The position numbers and the translations under genes are program-made. Under the pieces are notes generated by a model. It searched no databases. It was not told the origin of the DNA and was given only the letters and a program-made list of their open reading frames with translations. Below, one piece after another: positions 29,962 through 59,921 of a stretch of 60,239 nucleotides of DNA; position 1 is the stretch's first letter; every line of letters starts with the position of its first letter. The stretch comes from Sharpea azabuensis DSM 18934. GTDB taxonomy: Bacteria; Bacillota_I; Bacilli_A; Erysipelotrichales; Coprobacillaceae. The stretch lies in the NCBI RefSeq assembly GCF_000702165.1, contig NZ_JNKU01000010.1, forward strand, positions 1-60,239, read 5' to 3'.

Positions 29962-30071
29962 CACTATATTTTCTTGAATTTCTTTTCCTCTATCATATAA
30001 TAGAACTAAAGAAAAACAAGTAGGATTATTTTATAAAGTTAGTATCAAACACTTGAGTAATGGAGGCTTTT

Positions 30072-30446
30072 ATGAAAAAAGAACAATGTGAAAAGGCGAA
30101 TTTGTTTGGGAAATGTCCTTTCGTGACAACTCAACAGCTTATTAAAGGCAAGTGGGCAATCCTCATTCTACATGAATTATCTGATGGTCCCGTACGTTTT
30201 AAAGAACTACAAAGAAATATTGATATCACCCAAGCCACACTCTCTTCACAATTAAAGTATTTAGAGCAGGAAGGTTTAATTAAGCGTAAGGTTTATCCTG
30301 AAATACCACCTAGAGTAGAATACGCATTGACGGATATTGGCTATTCTTTTACACCTGTGCTTAATGAAATAGAGAAGTGGGGTATGAAATATATTGATTA
30401 TTTGAAAGAGAAAAACAAAGAAAAAAGTGTAAGCGCAAACAGTTAA
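30072..30446 (+). CDS. HxlR-family regulator
   Basis: 124 residues with the HxlR winged helix: CPFVTTQQLIKGKWAILILHELSDGPVRFKELQR then TLSSQLKYLEQEGLIKRKVY. N-terminal C6 and C15 are positioned like the redox cysteines of YodB/HypR-type regulators, suggesting thiol-based sensing of quinones. Start at 30072 from GGAGG 5 bases upstream. Divergent to the MoaF-like/dioxygenase pair, which it probably represses. Confidence 0.85.
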   Translation: MKKEQCEKANLFGKCPFVTTQQLIKGKWAILILHELSDGPVRFKELQRNIDITQATLSSQLKYLEQEGLIKRKVYPEIPPRVEYALTDIGYSFTPVLNEIEKWGMKYIDYLKEKNKEKSVSANS

Positions 30447-30449
30447 AAA

Positions 30450-30482
30450 GTACACATTCCGTTCATATAACTCACATATATT
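30450..30482 (+). promoter_or_regulatory. Promoter and palindrome of small RNA unit 1
   Basis: GTACACATTCCGTTC (30450-30464), then 12 bases, then the -10 box TATATT (30477-30482). Same layout as units 2 and 3, with a degraded right arm. There is no recognisable -35. Confidence 0.6.
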
Positions 30483-30488
30483 AACCTC

Positions 30489-30594
30489 GTCAACCAAGAG
30501 TTGACCACATAAATTTTCCCTTTTGAAATATTTCGACAAAATAATTTCGACAAACAAGAAGAAGTCTACTCCTCCCAAGTAAAGACTTCTTTTT
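30489..30594 (+). ncRNA. Tandem small RNA unit 1
   Basis: Starts 6 bases after the -10 box with hairpin GTCAAC-caaga-GTTGAC (30489-30505), then C-rich single strand (TTTTCCC), TTTCGACA twice, and terminator AAGAAGTCT...AGACTTCTT (30559-30591) with T run; the loop shows ACTCCTCCCAAGT. CCTCCC is complementary to GGGAGG, the host Shine-Dalgarno type. No reading frame with a ribosome binding site. It lacks the TACTTT-CCCC-AAAGTA segment present in unit 3. Function as a trans-acting RNA is inferred from structure. Confidence 0.7.
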
Positions 30595-30664
30595 GTTTAG
30601 AAACTACAATATAATCAAGAATAGAATACTGTATTCAGAAATAATTATATAACTAAATCCTATT

Positions 30665-30697
30665 GTACATATTATGTTCATATTAAAAACTTATATT
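30665..30697 (+). promoter_or_regulatory. Promoter and palindrome of small RNA unit 2
   Basis: GTACATATTATGTTC (30665-30679): arms GTACAT/ATGTTC around ATT with one mismatch; 12 bases later -10 TATATT (30692-30697). Confidence 0.65.
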
Positions 30698-30703
30698 ATA
30701 AGT

Positions 30704-30805
30704 GTCAGAAAGAGCTGACAATATAAATACTTTCCCTAATAGTATTTCCAAAACATTCTTTATATGAAAGAGAAGCCTTTTTCCTCCCAAGAAAGACTTC
30801 TTTTT
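30704..30805 (+). ncRNA. Tandem small RNA unit 2
   Basis: Starts 6 bases after the -10 with GTCAG-aaagag-CTGAC (30704-30719), then ATAAATACTTTCCCT, a middle part without the TTTCGACA repeats, and terminator AGAAGCCTTT...AAAGACTTCT (30771-30801; one C-A mismatch) with T run. The loop is TTCCTCCCAAG, identical to unit 3. Relative to unit 1 the 5' stem shows compensating base changes at two positions. Confidence 0.7.
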
Positions 30806-30862
30806 CATTTCTATACATAAAATAATATTTTCTTAACACAAATTACTTTATGAAAACATATT

Positions 30863-30895
30863 GTACACATTGTGTTCATAAATGAGGCTTATACT
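30863..30895 (+). promoter_or_regulatory. Promoter and palindrome of small RNA unit 3
   Basis: GTACACATTGTGTTC (30863-30877): arms GTACAC/GTGTTC around ATT; 12 bases later -10 TATACT (30890-30895). Confidence 0.65.
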
Positions 30896-30901
30896 AAGCT
30901 T

Positions 30902-31032
30902 GTCAGTAGAGAACTGACACCATAAATACTTTCCCCAAAGTACATAAAAAATTTCCCTTTGAAAATATTTCGACAAAACATTTTCGACATTGAAGAAGAA
31001 GTCCTTTTCCTCCCAAGAAGAACTTCTTTTTT
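30902..31032 (+). ncRNA. Tandem small RNA unit 3
   Basis: Starts 6 bases after the -10 with GTCAGT-agaga-ACTGAC (30902-30918). A second perfect hairpin TACTTT-CCCC-AAAGTA (about 30927-30942) displays four C. TTTCCC, TTTCGACA twice, then terminator AAGAAGTcCTT...AAGaACTTCTT (30996-31028) with T run and loop TTCCTCCCAAG. The longest and probably most complete copy. Three separate C-rich sites could pair with ribosome binding sites. Confidence 0.7.
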
Positions 31033-31034
31033 CT

Positions 31035-31089: not shown

Positions 31090-31800
31090 ATGAAAACAAA
31101 AGCATTGAAAGCCGCTTTCCCCTATACCATACCCATCTTTGCAGGTTTCTGGTTTCTTGCCTTGGCTTATGGGATTTTAATGAATAAGAATGGATTCTCA
31201 TTTGTTTATCCATTCTTTATGAGTTTACTGATTTTTGGTGGTTCTTTAGAGTTTATTGCCGTTACCCTCTTAATGTCACCTTTTGCCCCTGTAGCTGCAC
31301 TTACAATGACATTACTGATCCAGGCAAGACATTTATTCTATGGTATTGCAATGTTGGATAAGTATAAGGATATGGGTTGGAAGAAATATTATTTGATTTT
31401 TGGAATGTGTGATGAAACATTTTCTATTAATTATACTGCTGATATTCCTGAAGACGTGGATCGAGGCTGGTTTATGTTTTTTGTGACATTGTTGAATCAT
31501 TTGTACTGGGTGTCTGGTGCAACTATTGGTGGACTGATTGGACCCTATCTCCACTTTAATACCAAAGGACTTGATTTTGTCATGACAGCGATGTTTTTGA
31601 CAATCTTTATGAATCAATGGATGAAAGAAAAGAAGAAATATACAGGATTAATTGGCATTATCGCCACAGCTCTATGTTTAATTCTTCTAGGCAAGAATCA
31701 TTTCATGATTCCTGCTATGATGGCCATCATCATACTCCTTACACTCTTTAAAAAGCCTATCAGTACAGCCTATACAGAAAGCGAGGAAAATGCACAATGA
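31090..31800 (+). CDS. azlC: AzlC-family branched-chain amino acid exporter, large subunit
   Basis: 236 residues, about seven helices, starting [33 protein letters not shown], characteristic of AzlC (YgaZ-like). Works with the small AzlD subunit, encoded next with a 4-base overlap, to export branched-chain amino acids or analogues. AAAGGAG lies upstream. It directly follows the three small-RNA units. Confidence 0.9.
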
Positions 31801-38742: not shown

Positions 38743-40353
38743 TTAAGCTACTTTAATTCCGCTATTCAGTATCTTGATTTTATTAGCTTTAATCCATGTG
38801 ATCAGGGCTTTTTCTTTGTTGTAGCATCTTTCAAATTCTGCATTGCATTTGTCTTTATCTATGTTCTGTGTTCTATAATCGTAGCAGTAAAGCAGATATG
38901 ATGAGTACCAGTCTCTTTGTACTTCAGTGCCATCACGAAGTTTATACAGCCTGTCAGACAGTTTCTTTTTGATGTAATCATCGGCAGTGTGGTCATACTG
39001 GCTTGCCCTGTAATTGTTCGGAACCTCTATGTACGTACCACCCGTGGCCTTGAATTTCCTTTCTACCGCAGTCTGGAATCCAGAAGGGCATCTGTTCTTT
39101 ATGGACTTGCCAAAACGCTTTTTCCTATTGAACTTGCCTTTACTGTTAACAGTAGTTTCTTTTGTGCGCCTCATGAGCCTGCTCGCATTTTTAGATTCAG
39201 TCACAAACGTATCTCCAAGACTTCGTAAGTGGTTGGCATCTTCGTTTATTGCAAGCTGCCTGTTGACCGCGTTGATACGGCATAATTCAGAGTGCTTGGC
39301 TTTTAGCTGCTTATAATGATTAGAGTATTTCCATATTTTACGGCCTTTCTTCATCGTGCCATCATCATTATAGTTCTGAGGATTCGTAGCCCGCCTTGAC
39401 CTGTCCATGGCGCGGTAAAGAAGTCGTTCCTTTCTTTCGGATGTCTGGATACTGTTACCACGCTCCGAAAGATTCTTTAAGCCAACCTCGGTATCTGATG
39501 TATATGCAACCGTCTGCGTTCCGATATCAGCGCCTATCGTGCCCTTGCCGTATATGTGACGGGGATTGCCATGCTTGCCATATTTGGGCATCGCTTTCCC
39601 TTCGATGGTCAGATGAAGATATAGTCTGTACTTGCCTCTTATCATCTTAGGCACGAGAGTAGCATAGCATGGTCTATATGTATCTATGCAGCAGGCATCT
39701 TCGATAAGTGTATTAATAGCTTTATTATCTATGTTCTCTGGTTCGGCAAGATAAGATAAAACAGCATCTACTTCATCTTGTTGAAATCTGTCATCTGCCT
39801 GTATTCCAAACATAGTTTTACCAAGCCTGAATTGCAGTTTATTGTCCTTAACAGACATTGAGATGCCACGGTTTATCTGTTTTGCCCTGATGCATGGCAA
39901 ATCTCCGTATTTAGAAAAATGAATAATGCCGCCATCACCATAAAGACATTTTTCCATCCCGTTCCAGATATCTTCGGCTTTAGTAAGAGCAAAAACAGCA
40001 TCTATGCCATATTTCTTGCCTATGGGTATCATGGATCTTCTGCAATAATCCCATGTGATATTGTAGGATATCTGCATTTCGTTGAGCTGCTTTGCCAAAG
40101 CCTTACGTTTATCTTTGTCTTGAGTATCCCCATATAATTTAAGCAATTTGCGGTATCTCTTGGTACGTAAAAGCTGGTCATAATTCTTTCTCATAAGCCC
40201 GACAAGTTCATTCCCGGCCTTGCGTATCCTGTCTGACAGAGCCACGACTTTTAACACATCAGAATACGGCATATCGGTTTCGACAGCCAGGATGTGCCTG
40301 TCAGAAAGTTTATGAAACTGCTTCAAGATTTTCTTGTATTCTTCATCAGTCAT
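38743..40353 (-). CDS. tnpB: TnpB-like RuvC nuclease, long form without a visible zinc ribbon
   Basis: 536 residues, longer than typical TnpB (about 350-450). RuvC I: GTIGADIGTQTVAYTSD; candidate RuvC II Glu in GDTFVTESKNASRL; candidate RuvC III Asp in NIDKDKCNAEFERCYN. The usual CxxC...CxxC zinc ribbon between II and III is absent; this stretch reads SQYDHTADDYIKKKLSDRLY with no paired cysteines. Family TnpB proteins are omega-RNA-guided nucleases that preserve the element at its donor site. The start overlaps tnpA by 8 bases. Confidence 0.82.
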   Translation of the reverse strand: MTDEEYKKILKQFHKLSDRHILAVETDMPYSDVLKVVALSDRIRKAGNELVGLMRKNYDQLLRTKRYRKLLKLYGDTQDKDKRKALAKQLNEMQISYNITWDYCRRSMIPIGKKYGIDAVFALTKAEDIWNGMEKCLYGDGGIIHFSKYGDLPCIRAKQINRGISMSVKDNKLQFRLGKTMFGIQADDRFQQDEVDAVLSYLAEPENIDNKAINTLIEDACCIDTYRPCYATLVPKMIRGKYRLYLHLTIEGKAMPKYGKHGNPRHIYGKGTIGADIGTQTVAYTSDTEVGLKNLSERGNSIQTSERKERLLYRAMDRSRRATNPQNYNDDGTMKKGRKIWKYSNHYKQLKAKHSELCRINAVNRQLAINEDANHLRSLGDTFVTESKNASRLMRRTKETTVNSKGKFNRKKRFGKSIKNRCPSGFQTAVERKFKATGGTYIEVPNNYRASQYDHTADDYIKKKLSDRLYKLRDGTEVQRDWYSSYLLYCYDYRTQNIDKDKCNAEFERCYNKEKALITWIKANKIKILNSGIKVA

Positions 40354-40759
40354 GATTTTTCTGTTCCTCGATATATCTCTTAACTGTAGCTTCGCTTATA
40401 TGTCCTGCCGTTGATACAAAATATCCCCTTGACCATAATACCCCACGACGGGAGTAAAACTGCTTCAGCTCTGGATACGCCTTAAGCATCTCAATAGCAC
40501 TGATGCTTTTAAGCGTCCTTGCTATATCACAGGGAGCAACCGTCTGCGGGCAATCCACGAATATATGTATATGGTCTGGCATCACTTCCAATGCTTTGAT
40601 TTCATATCCGTATTGATTGCAGATGTCAGCAAGGATGTTTTTTAGTTTATCGTCAGCGCCTTTCTGCAATACAGTGAATCTGAACTCAGGGCACCAGATG
40701 ATATGATACTGCGTCAGATATTTACAATGCGAAGCACTATGATATTGTTCCTCGCTCAT
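40346..40759 (-). CDS. tnpA: IS200/IS605 TnpA, HUH Y1 transposase
   Basis: 137 residues from the ATG at 40759 (a GTG 4 codons earlier is possible; AGGTGA lies 8 bases before the ATG). The HUH motif is in MPDHIHIFVDCPQ, and the catalytic Tyr in ATVKRYIEEQ. A single-strand DNA transposase acting on the hairpin ends. Lies between the RHH gene (23-base overlap with the RHH frame) and tnpB (8-base overlap). Confidence 0.92.
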   Translation of the reverse strand: MSEEQYHSASHCKYLTQYHIIWCPEFRFTVLQKGADDKLKNILADICNQYGYEIKALEVMPDHIHIFVDCPQTVAPCDIARTLKSISAIEMLKAYPELKQFYSRRGVLWSRGYFVSTAGHISEATVKRYIEEQKNHD

Positions 40760-40934
40760 TGTCTTTTTCACCTAATTGATATTTTTCCTGAATCCCTCTG
40801 CGCATCAGGTCAAGGAATGTAATGGTTTTACCTTCCTCGACAGAATAGATGCGTGCAAGGTTCTCAAGCTGGGTCTTCCATTCAGAAGGAATAGAAATAT
40901 TGATTTGTACATTATTGCTTTTAGAACGTGCCAT
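40737..40934 (-). CDS. Ribbon-helix-helix small protein carried by the IS
   Basis: 65 residues: MARSKSNNVQINISIPSEW then KTQLENLARIYSVEEGKTITFLDLMRRGIQEK, matching the RHH (MetJ/CopG) pattern of a beta strand and two helices. GGAGGT lies 9 bases before the ATG. First gene of the element, overlapping tnpA by 23 bases. Probably a repressor of its own operon, or a host-range or DNA-binding accessory. Not a standard IS605 component as far as I know. Confidence 0.65.
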   Translation of the reverse strand: MARSKSNNVQINISIPSEWKTQLENLARIYSVEEGKTITFLDLMRRGIQEKYQLGEKDNERGTIS

Positions 40935-54524: not shown

Positions 54525-56174
<1,650 letters not shown>

Positions 56175-56255
56175 CTATTCCGTGGTTTCATTGTACCACG
56201 GAACAGGGGCGGCTGTACAGCGGTAAAAGTGATAAATCTGCTTCTTTACAGCTTG

Positions 56256-56444
56256 TCAAATCGCCTTTTTTTGTGTAGCAGCGGCTTCCGCTTCCAGTAC
56301 CCTCGCCATCTTGTCGGCGGCGGTGCTGGTGGTGTCTTTCTTGAAAAAGCCGGACACGACAAGAACGGTATTCCCCATGCGGATTTCCGTCACGCAGTCG
56401 GGGCGGCGGGTGGTACGGTGGTCGTGCTGCTTGATATTCTCCAT
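56256..56444 (-). CDS. TnpW-like transposon-encoded protein
   Basis: 62 residues: TEIRMGNTVLVVSGFFKKDTTSTAADKMARVLEAE, matching the small TnpW family found in Tn4451-like elements. Start at 56444 chosen from AAAGGAGT 8 bases upstream. Function unknown; it lies between the ATPase and recombinase. Confidence 0.75.
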   Translation of the reverse strand: MENIKQHDHRTTRRPDCVTEIRMGNTVLVVSGFFKKDTTSTAADKMARVLEAEAAATQKKAI

Positions 56445-56458
56445 AGGCAATACTCCTT

Positions 56459-57298
56459 TCATTCAGCCAGCAGTTTCTTCATGGTTTCCATTTTCCGCTT
56501 TGCGGTTTCCTGCCGGAAGTTGACGCCAGTAAAGCGTATCGGGACGCACATGGACAGCAGTCGGTCATAAATCCGGGAATGGGCCGTGTCTGTCGGCTTT
56601 TTCAACTCGTCCAGCGGGCGGTTGGTGGTGGCGATCAGCGGCTTGTTGCTGCGGTATCGGGTATCAATCACACGGAATACCTGTTCCAGTCCATAGTCGG
56701 TGCCACGCTCCATGCCGAAGTCGTCAATGATAAGCAGCGGATAGCGGCAAAGGCGGGAAATATACTCATTCCGGCCTGTAAAGCCGGGAGAGAGGTCGCC
56801 CAGGATAACGGCGAAGTTCGTCATATATACGGGGACTTCTTTCTCCATGAGGGCGTTTGCGATACAGCCCGCAAGGTAGCTTTTCCCGTTGCCGACGTTC
56901 CCCCAGAACAGGCAGCCGATGTTTTCGGCCTGCATTTCTTCCCAATGCTCCGCATACCGCCGGGCAATCCCGGTCTGCGGGTTTCTGCCGTTGTCGTTCT
57001 CGAATGTCCATTGCTGCATGGCTGAGTCGGCAAAAGCCCTCTGTTTCAGATTTTCCACGGCTTCCACATGGCGGCGGTGTTCCTCGGCGGCCTGCCGCTG
57101 CTCACGGGCGGCTCTCTGGCAGTCGCACTCTGCCGGGTGGCGGTCACGGCCAAACAGCTCCTTACCCTCCGGGAAGTAGGCTTCTTTCGGCGTATGGCAC
57201 TTTCCGCAGTAAAGCAGTCCGTCCTCGCCGATATAGTCCTCCATCTCCGGGGCGGCGGTTGTCATGTTCTCCAAAATATCTTTGATTTCACTTGTCAT
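56459..57298 (-). CDS. DnaC/IstB-like AAA+ ATPase (helicase loader)
   Basis: 279 residues: an N-terminal Cys cluster (LYCGKCH...CDCQRA), Walker A GNVGNGKS at 133-140, Walker B LLIIDDFGMERG, sensor ATTNRPLDE. Similar to DnaC/DnaI helicase loaders encoded by conjugative elements; probably works with the adjacent initiator to replicate the circular form. Overlaps the initiator gene by 4 bases. Confidence 0.9.
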   Translation of the reverse strand: MTSEIKDILENMTTAAPEMEDYIGEDGLLYCGKCHTPKEAYFPEGKELFGRDRHPAECDCQRAAREQRQAAEEHRRHVEAVENLKQRAFADSAMQQWTFENDNGRNPQTGIARRYAEHWEEMQAENIGCLFWGNVGNGKSYLAGCIANALMEKEVPVYMTNFAVILGDLSPGFTGRNEYISRLCRYPLLIIDDFGMERGTDYGLEQVFRVIDTRYRSNKPLIATTNRPLDELKKPTDTAHSRIYDRLLSMCVPIRFTGVNFRQETAKRKMETMKKLLAE

Positions 57299-58089
57299 AA
57301 GCTTTCTCCCTCCATACAGGTATAGTCGGGGATGCCCTGTTTTACGGCTCCCTTTTTGTCATTGGCCGCCCATCTGTGCAAGGCGGCGGCATAATTCTGG
57401 TAGGCTTTCCCGCTGGCGGCAAGGTAATGGCTCATTTCCTCAATCAGCCGTTCCAGCCTGTCCGGGTATTCTGCCTGTAACTCGTCATATTCGTCCTTTG
57501 ACAGAAAAATATTCTCATATCGGCCATAAGCTGTGGGCGGCTCCCCACTCGCTCTCATTGTTTGGTTCTCTATTAAGTTGTTTATATTAGTTTTGTTAGG
57601 GGTCGGTTTTCCGACCATCATAGGGTCGGTTTTCCGACCGTCATAAGGTCGCTTTTCCGACTGTATGAGGGTCGCTTTTCCGGCCATCAGTTGGTCGGAA
57701 AACCGTACCACTGGGACAGGCGGCACTTTCACATAAAGCCGATTGGGTGCGGAGAAGCCCCGCCGTTCCCGTTCTAAAAGCCCGGCTGCGTCCAGTTCTT
57801 TCAAGGCTCCCTTGATGGCGGTACAACCCTTGTCCAGCATTTCCGCTATCTCCGCAACGGGGTAGACAATGAATATCCTGCCCTCGCCGTCCTGCCAGCC
57901 GTTCTTCTGTGACAGGGTGGAGCGGTCTAATAAAAGCGCATACAGCAGCTTGGCGGTCTGTGAAATCTCCATTTTCAGCAGGAAACGGGGGTATGGAAGA
58001 TAGGCGGGCAGCGTGGTGTCTGCCCTGATATAATCAGCGATAGTATCACCTCCCTCTGTGTTGTGTCGTTTTTGGGCTTTGTCACGCAT
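57295..58089 (-). CDS. Replication initiator A-family protein
   Basis: 264 residues from the ATG at 58089. The conserved RepA_N-like start IADYIRADTTLPAYLPYPRF then LLKMEISQTAKLLYALLLDR is followed by a winged helix and a variable C-terminal part with DUF6017-like helices. The expected family start codon (M-A-D-Y) is here ATC at 58039-58041, with GGGAGG 7 bases before it; the ATG at 58089 has no good site. Either ATC is used or translation starts upstream. Same-strand element core gene. Confidence 0.82.
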   Translation of the reverse strand: MRDKAQKRHNTEGGDTIADYIRADTTLPAYLPYPRFLLKMEISQTAKLLYALLLDRSTLSQKNGWQDGEGRIFIVYPVAEIAEMLDKGCTAIKGALKELDAAGLLERERRGFSAPNRLYVKVPPVPVVRFSDQLMAGKATLIQSEKRPYDGRKTDPMMVGKPTPNKTNINNLIENQTMRASGEPPTAYGRYENIFLSKDEYDELQAEYPDRLERLIEEMSHYLAASGKAYQNYAAALHRWAANDKKGAVKQGIPDYTCMEGESL

Positions 58090-58161
58090 TAGGACGGCAT
58101 TTCCGGGGGGAAAGGATAAATGTATCGCATACCCTTTGACACCCACGAAAAAAGCCTTGAT

Positions 58162-58548
58162 TTATGCGGGTTTGAAAGGCTCTAAAGCGTGACATTTCTG
58201 CCTTTGTTTCCGCTTTCTCTCGGCGGCTTTGCGTTTCTTCATGCACCCGGCGCAGCCGGGGCAGTATTTCCCCCGGTTGGATTTGGGGACAAAGGCCGCC
58301 CCGCAGACCGCGCAGCGTTTCCGGCTCCCCCGGTACAAGAGGGCTGCGGCCAGCTCCCCGTCAAGGGGCAGGACAGCCACACGGAACCAGCGGCACATGA
58401 GGGAATAGGAAATGCTCTGGACGCACACGCAAGGCTCCCCGTCGTCTAACAGCAGGCAGTTCCCCTCGTCGTAGTTACAGCACTCATGCACAAGGCGGCG
58501 GGCTGCCTGGTGCTGGCGGTAGTCCATGCGGGACGGCTTATCGTTCAT
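58162..58548 (-). CDS. Cysteine-rich VLP-domain protein
   Basis: 128 residues: RRLVHECCNYDEGNCLLLDDGEPCVCVQSISYSLMCRWFRVAVLPLD and KRCAVCGAAFVPKSNRGKYCPGC, with at least ten Cys, then a basic tail KKRKAAERKRKQRQK. Matches the Cys_rich_VLP domain found in integrative elements of gut Firmicutes; probably a zinc-binding DNA or RNA-binding accessory. AAAGGAG lies upstream. Confidence 0.82.
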   Translation of the reverse strand: MNDKPSRMDYRQHQAARRLVHECCNYDEGNCLLLDDGEPCVCVQSISYSLMCRWFRVAVLPLDGELAAALLYRGSRKRCAVCGAAFVPKSNRGKYCPGCAGCMKKRKAAERKRKQRQKCHALEPFKPA

Positions 58549-59921
58549 GGCTCTGCTCCTTTCTGCGGTGCGGCTCTTCCCGGCGCAAAATCTGGTCGAT
58601 GTTCCGCTTGACGGTCTGCAACTCCCTGAACCGCTGCTTCTGTTCGTGATAGGTGTTGTACAGGCCGTCTTTCTCGGAGATAAGCTGCTCGATCTCGGCC
58701 TGCAACGCTTTTCGGCCGGGCAGCTTGGTAAGCCCCTGTGCCTTGAAATACCGGGCGGCGGCTTCGGCTATGATAAAATCGCTCTCGTTTGCCTGGCGGT
58801 ATGCGGCGCGGGCTTTCTCGGATTTCTGCGCTTTCAGCCCCTCGCGGATGGGCTTGGTCTTGGCATAGGCAAGTACCTGTTGCCGCAACTCCCTTTTCCC
58901 TTGCAGCTTCGTTTCCAGTGCTTTCAGTTCGCCGCTGGTCTGGCGCATTTCCTGATAGGCGGTAGCAACGGCGGCTTCAAGCTGTTCCGGGGAAGAAAAG
59001 CCGTACTGTTGGTAGATGGTCAGGGTCTTGGCGGCCTGTTTCAGATTGTGTATCTTCGCCCATCGTTCATAGCCTTTGCCCTTGCCCTCGGCCATCTTCT
59101 GCTCAATGTCCACAAGCCGCTGCACACTGTCCTGTCTGGGGTCGATTTTCCCTGTCTTTTCGCCCTGTAAGCGGCCTTTCCCGGCGTGTAGGTATTCGGG
59201 TATGGCTGCGGTCTGTTCGGCGGCTCTGGCGGCTTGGTGCTGCGGGGTGTAGCGAACCGTTACGCCCCTCTGGGCGTTCTGCTCCAAAACGGCAAGGACG
59301 GCGGTGCGGTCAAAGTCGCCGCCCAGCTTCCGGGCGGTGATAGGCTTCGTCCTGTCTGGCGTGAGGTAGGACAGCCGCCCCCGGCTCTCCTTGACGGTCA
59401 CACCCTCCCGCAACAGCAGAGAGGAAAACTCGTCAAAGCTGGCAGCGGTGGCAAGGGCTTTCCGTAGGGTCTGCCGCAGCTTCTCCTTGTTCGTTTCAAA
59501 CTTGGTCTGCCGGGGCGTGATACCGCCTGCAATCATGGGGGCGTTCTGCTTGTCCAGTGCGGCCTGTCCCTTTTTCTGCGCCCAATATTCCCGGTCTGTG
59601 ACACGGTTCTTGCTGCCGTTCAAGAGGTCGATTTGGTAAAGTCCTTCCCGGTGGCACATCTCCATGACCTCGGACTTGAAGTAGCGTAGGGCTGCGTCGG
59701 TGCAGCGGTGCTTGCACCCGGCTTTCGTGTCCGCTGGCCTGTCCATGTAGGGCAGGAACGGCACTTCCTCTATCCGCAGGCTGTTAATGACGATATGCAC
59801 ATGGATGTTGCCGCTGTGGTTATGCCCGTCCGGGTGGGTGCAGACAAGGGCCTGATGGCCGGGGAAATGCTCTTTACAGAATTGCTCCCCCAACGCCTGC
59901 GTGCAAAGGATAAAATAATAA
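58538..59921 (-). pseudogene. Relaxase (MobA/VirD2-like), 5' end removed by an IS21-like insertion
   Basis: C-terminal 455 codons or so: ALGEQFCKEHFPGHQALVC, GNIHVHIVINSLR (metal-binding HxH of the relaxase), KNRVTDREYWAQKKGQAALD, a long coiled-coil tail. The catalytic Tyr and N-terminal strand expected about 60-90 residues earlier are missing. The frame stays open to about 59921, where an IS starts. Without the N-terminus nicking activity is unlikely. Overlaps the VLP gene by 11 bases. Confidence 0.82.

Follow-up and report, generated by a model that had tools for sequence, protein, structure and literature searches.

Multicopy small RNAs (sRNAs) under the control of two-component systems (TCS) have been described in streptococci and in Listeria. 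The streptococcal csRNAs of the CiaRH regulon are multicopy, their promoters carry a 6-nt direct repeat with a 5-nt gap, followed after exactly 10 nt by the -10 box, and an unpaired linker in the RNAs is complementary to the ribosome-binding site and the AUG (PMC3091779). LhrC1-5 of Listeria, controlled by LisRK, are also multicopy, contain UCCC in linker and terminator loop, block the ribosome-binding site and have envelope stress and heme as inducers (PMC4132741, PMC5880928); in the former paper, no known binding site is given for LisR. The known outputs of the TCS HssRS and HitRS are transporters. HitRS responds to envelope stress (PMC3968170).

The window, i.e., the whole stretch of 60,239 nt analyzed here, contains a tandem array of three units (30450-31034; Table 1). 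Their promoters have identical geometry, and each unit comprises a 5′ hairpin, unpaired C-rich stretches and a terminator. With the csRNAs these units have in common the multicopy state, the repeat-N5-repeat-N10-TATAAT geometry and two stem-loops plus an unpaired linker that mirrors ribosome-binding site and AUG. However, the CiaR box TTTAAG-N5-TTTAAG is absent, the box found being GTWCAY-N5-GTTCAT, and whereas the csRNAs belong to CiaR and streptococci, the units studied here belong to a different bacterial family, have a candidate regulator of the HssR clade and match no library entry. The multicopy state and the C-rich linker and terminator loops are also found in LhrC, but the 5′ hairpin loops of the present units are not C-rich. 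The units combine the csRNA arrangement (PMC3091779) with LhrC-like C-rich terminator loops (PMC4132741). Direct repeat and spacing are the same as at the hssR/hrtAB locus of S. aureus, and the candidate regulator belongs to the same clade as those of HssRS and HitRS; in contrast to the transporters served by these systems, all five boxes recognized in the genome drive predicted sRNAs.

A search of the window units against Rfam yielded no family at gathering score and no LhrC among the matches at E up to 1, the five matches in this range being unrelated and far below the cut-offs. The same search with ten other loci gave no match except a tRNA. The view of the first-pass annotation that the units form a multicopy regulatory RNA family like LhrC or the csRNAs and belong to no known family is upheld at the sequence level by the copies in relatives, the common promoter and the lack of an Rfam match. 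Our literature searches found nothing relevant on sRNAs in this bacterial family and no earlier description of such a control layer in these bacteria.

We assign a probability of roughly three in four to the reading that the locus is part of a multicopy family of translation-blocking sRNAs controlled by an HssR-type TCS. The array would then comprise three members of a five-copy family. A response regulator of the HssR/HitR clade would bind the 11-bp direct repeat, supplying the missing -35 contact, and all copies would be switched on together by heme- or envelope-type stress. Each RNA of about 100-130 nt would consist of a 5′ hairpin, the unpaired linker CAUAAAUUUUCCC and a terminator loop displaying CCUCCC, and linker and loop would bind target mRNAs by base pairing at their ribosome-binding site and start codon, so that translation is blocked. 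If this is true, a whole bacterial family gains a multicopy post-transcriptional stress response predictable from sequence, and HssR-type signaling reaches sRNAs, beyond efflux pumps. Since regulator, binding site and pairing regions are named, each step is directly testable.

Table 1. Features of the array and its flanks (window positions), further copies and candidate regulator (genome positions). z, folding relative to dinucleotide shuffles.
Feature	Position	Strand	Remark
HxlR-family regulator gene	30060..30446	+	5′ of array; stop 3 nt before unit 1 repeat, no terminator seen in this gap
Unit 1 direct repeat GTACACATT-CC-GTTCATATA	30450..30469	+	HssR-type; at -35 position
Unit 1 -10 box TATATT	30477..30482	+	10 nt 3′ of GTTCAT
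Unit 1 predicted sRNA, ~110 nt	30489..30598	+	z -6.4; kept in sister species
Unit 1 5′ hairpin GTCAAC/GTTGAC	30489..30505	+	fold; paired variation among relatives
Unit 1 linker CATAAATTTTCCCT	30508..30521	+	unpaired in fold; complement of AGGGAAAATTTATG (ribosome-binding site and start codon)
Unit 1 terminator stem-loop	30552..30598	+	loop CTCCTCCCAAG at 30569-30579
Unit 2 direct repeat GTACATATT-AT-GTTCATATT	30665..30684	+	
Unit 2 -10 box TATATT	30692..30697	+	
Unit 2 predicted sRNA	30704..30808	+	z -5.9
Unit 2 5′ hairpin	30704..30719	+	
Unit 2 C-rich linker	30722..30736	+	
Unit 2 terminator loop TTCCTCCCAAG	30781..30791	+	
Unit 3 direct repeat GTACACATT-GT-GTTCATAAA	30863..30882	+	
Unit 3 -10 box TATACT	30890..30895	+	
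Unit 3 predicted sRNA	30902..31034	+	z -3.5
Unit 3 5′ hairpin	30902..30918	+	
Unit 3 CAT...CCC linker, twice	30921..30935 and 30943..30957	+	
Unit 3 terminator loop TTCCTCCCAAG	31007..31017	+	
azlC	31090..31800	+	3′ of array
Copy 4, complete	G000:C32:16819		
Copy 5, divergent	G000:C13:49696		
HssR-like regulator	G000:C20:22050-22718		HAMP histidine kinase just downstream

The three consecutive units had already been proposed from the letters of the DNA, and their positions, spacings, hairpins, C-rich stretches and terminators all check out. In each of them, GTTC is followed after 12 nt by the -10 box and this, after exactly 6 nt, by the 5′ hairpin. The long terminator stems display CCTCCCAAG in their loops, and all three units fold better than their dinucleotide shuffles (Table 1).

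The promoter element is an 11-bp direct repeat, GTWCAYATT-N2-GTTCATAWW, located 10 bp before the -10 box; its family-wide form is (G)TTCATATT-N2-(R)TTCATAWW. The first-pass annotation had described it as a 15-bp near-palindrome with compensating changes in both arms of units 2 and 3. Across 48 C-rich non-coding sites, the half-sites match as a direct repeat of HssR type at 6.2 of 9 positions, compared to 3.0 by chance, whereas read as a palindrome they form 2.7 of 7 pairs, compared to 2.2 by chance. The palindrome was therefore rejected, and its appearance is explained as a by-product of two similar half-sites. The supposedly compensating changes are broken in the sister species, where unit 2 reads GTACATATTGTGTTC. 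Conservation at these sites extends beyond the positions searched for, namely to a G (38/48) and a T (44/48) upstream and an A (42/48) downstream.

A survey of the bacterial family, comprising 43 genomes from 20 genera whose kinship was taken from their labels, found the box together with the 10-nt spacer and the -10 box (at most one mismatch) in 42 genomes; the box pattern itself has several matches per genome, compared to about 0.5 in the reversed control. With this conserved box and its fixed spacing, the idea that an activator site stands in for the -35 box holds as a predicted site. Two kinds of units lie behind the box, protein genes and C-rich sRNA-like units. The former, several of them named by eye, include genes for a YugP-type zinc peptidase, a small membrane protein with a zinc-ribbon-like end, GroES, winged-helix proteins, a small alarmone-synthetase-like protein and transporters. 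At four loci in two genera, the promoter of a groES-like gene combines a CIRCE-like repeat with the HssR-type direct repeat.

The exact promoter pattern GTWCAYATTNNGTTCAT matches four times in the 2.4-Mb genome and not once in the reversed control, and all four matches are such units, i.e., the three of the array and a complete fourth copy elsewhere. A looser search added a fifth, divergent copy with a hairpin, a AAATTTTCCCC linker and a TTCTCCCC terminator loop. Copies 4 and 5 both run toward oppositely oriented genes and are therefore regarded as free-standing units, not leaders. The sister species has four copies at matching places, three in tandem and one solo. Behind the box, at least 45 C-rich sRNA-like units were counted in 29 of the 43 family genomes and 17 of the 20 genera, with gene neighbors that vary between genera. 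Instead of an absence of copies or random hairpin variation, which the first-pass annotation had named as an outcome speaking against it, the relatives show copies, paired hairpin changes and a common promoter. At two loci in other genera, box-driven units are likewise arranged as tandem pairs, close to prfA and thymidine kinase genes. At seven loci in several genera, a unit lies directly 5′ of a pyrG-like gene, often with CCCCTCTCCCAAA in its loop.

The starting point of the 5′ hairpin is fixed, and TGT is conserved at the predicted start. At this position, a stem score of at least 12 is reached by 21 of the 48 units, compared to 1.9 (maximum 5) in shuffles, and the paired alternatives TGTCAG/CTGACA, TGTCATC/GATGACA, TGTCTT/AAGACA and TGTCGA/TCGACA bear out the covariation first noticed within the array. 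Stems were searched sequence by sequence, since a MAFFT alignment of the hairpins misplaced the 3′ arm. Non-coding box sites contain 2.09 CCC and 0.27 GGG per 120 nt, whereas the coding sites of the same box contain 0.11 CCC and 0.75 GGG, a contrast computed before any filter for TCCC was applied. TCCC occurs 86 times in the units compared to 38 times in shuffles. As the 48-unit set was filtered for TCCC, the C-richness within this set is in part due to selection. Of the CCC triplets, 94% are unpaired, compared to 75% in shuffles. The linker CAUAAAUUUUCCC has GGGAAAAUUUAUG as its reverse complement, in which a ribosome-binding site and a start codon stand in natural spacing and order; in units 2 and 3, part of the linker is taken up by a small additional hairpin, with the C-run displayed in the loop. 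The complementarity of the C-rich loops to the ribosome-binding site, as initially pointed out, remains, but the emphasis shifts, the linker with its built-in anti-start-codon (CAU...CCC) probably mattering no less than the terminator loop. TTTCGACA is found inside the predicted RNAs at 30531-30552 (unit 1), at 30968-30989 (unit 3) and at two further loci, with two copies in units 1, 3 and 4 and one in copy 4 of the sister species. It resembles a Spo0A box, although it may be no more than RNA hairpin sequence.

Eight OmpR-type regulators are encoded in the genome. One of them (Table 1) is 46% identical to annotated HssR of S. aureus overall and 51.6% in the DNA-binding domain. In an annotated S. 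aureus sequence record, used because the open papers searched did not give the literal HssR box, the hssR/hrtAB locus has GTTCATATTGAGTTCATATT just 5′ of the ABC permease, spaced from TATACT by 10 nt as in the present units, and the box also occurs inverted near hssR. The HssR repeat GTTCATATT-N2-GTTCATATT is present at the promoter, unit 2 reading GTACATATTATGTTCATATT with one mismatch. Elsewhere in Bacillota, the box lies 5′ of genes for HrtB-like permeases, exporters and YugP, and 21 of 80 such loci, counted within the stretch taken around each, encode a regulator with at least 42% identity to the HssR-like one. A TCS gene adjoining the units or having a convincing box upstream was not found, nor did the class-level box scan reach a clear hssR/hrtAB locus; within the genome, no transporter gene, hrtAB included, was seen behind a convincing box (up to 3 mismatches). 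The kinase can be aligned to related kinases over residues 151-447 only. As its sensor part does not align, the heme or envelope-stress signal cannot be transferred to it, and its signal may be neither of the two.

The box might also serve another OmpR-type regulator (e.g., PhoP-like, VanR-like or pyrG-linked) that activates trans-acting sRNAs, its likeness to the HssR box then being convergence. OmpR/PhoB-type regulators commonly bind 11-bp direct repeats, seven others are encoded in the genome, and in relatives the units often lie 5′ of pyrG, from which one TCS gene set diverges in this genome. We nevertheless consider this improbable, since the HssR-type DNA-binding domain and recognition helix are confined to the HssR-like regulator, the DNA-binding domains of the other seven being at most 34% identical to that of HssR, and since the family genomes with the box, 42 of 43, are exactly those with an ortholog of it, one in each (the lone genome without both is 69% complete), with the clade also encoded near the box in other Bacillota. 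The pyrG-linked TCS was a candidate on account of the units lying 5′ of pyrG in several genera, but was rejected on the 27% identity of its DNA-binding domain to that of HssR.

Alternatively, the units might act in cis on azlC as leaders or attenuators, or might be stacked terminators by which hxlR is insulated from azlC. This is suggested by the distance of ~56 nt from the end of unit 3 to azlC, and azlC also lies 3′ of a unit of the family in another genus. Yet every unit comes with a promoter and a terminator of its own, neighbors change from genus to genus, and copies 4 and 5 as well as units of other relatives face oppositely oriented genes, which makes a role in cis very improbable. Multicopy C-rich sRNAs can be sponges, and the present RNAs, being multicopy and C-rich, might mainly titrate another RNA or a protein instead of blocking ribosome-binding sites. 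We see hardly any likelihood in this, given that the linker mirrors a ribosome-binding site and a start codon in their natural order and that the C-runs are kept unpaired.

For translation-blocking sRNAs, the best predicted pairing is between copy 4 and a lactate-permease-like gene at its start region (AAGGGGAAAATTTATGAA), with 18 consecutive pairs and -28 kcal/mol; among 153 reference start regions, one scores equally well or better. In a PTS operon (G000:C26, named by eye), two start regions contain TTGGGAGGAA, matching the terminator loops, and many other predicted targets look like putative membrane or envelope proteins. These predictions are soft because an anti-ribosome-site sequence will form weak pairings with numerous genes.

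A different, strongly conserved RNA-like element lies behind the same box in 30 of 118 box loci, in Lachnospiraceae and Clostridium; it has the form AUAAAUUUUUUCAUAAUAGCCC-stem-GGGCACUCCUCAUUUU, the stem varying by paired changes, and six of its loci checked against Rfam gave no match. Tentatively, the HssR-type TCS of the genus might have an all-RNA output, and translation-blocking sRNAs might have become coupled to this sensor clade on two or more occasions in Bacillota, here and, involving the unrelated RNA, in Lachnospiraceae.

Other features of the window, assigned by eye, are a gene pair like an IS200/IS605-type transposase and a TnpB-like protein (38743-40771) and serine recombinase, DnaC-like and relaxase-like genes (54525-59893), the latter suggesting a mobile element at the window end. 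GTAGATATAGTATTCATATGTCCGGTATATGAT was found at three contig ends and is probably an insertion sequence that breaks the assembly.
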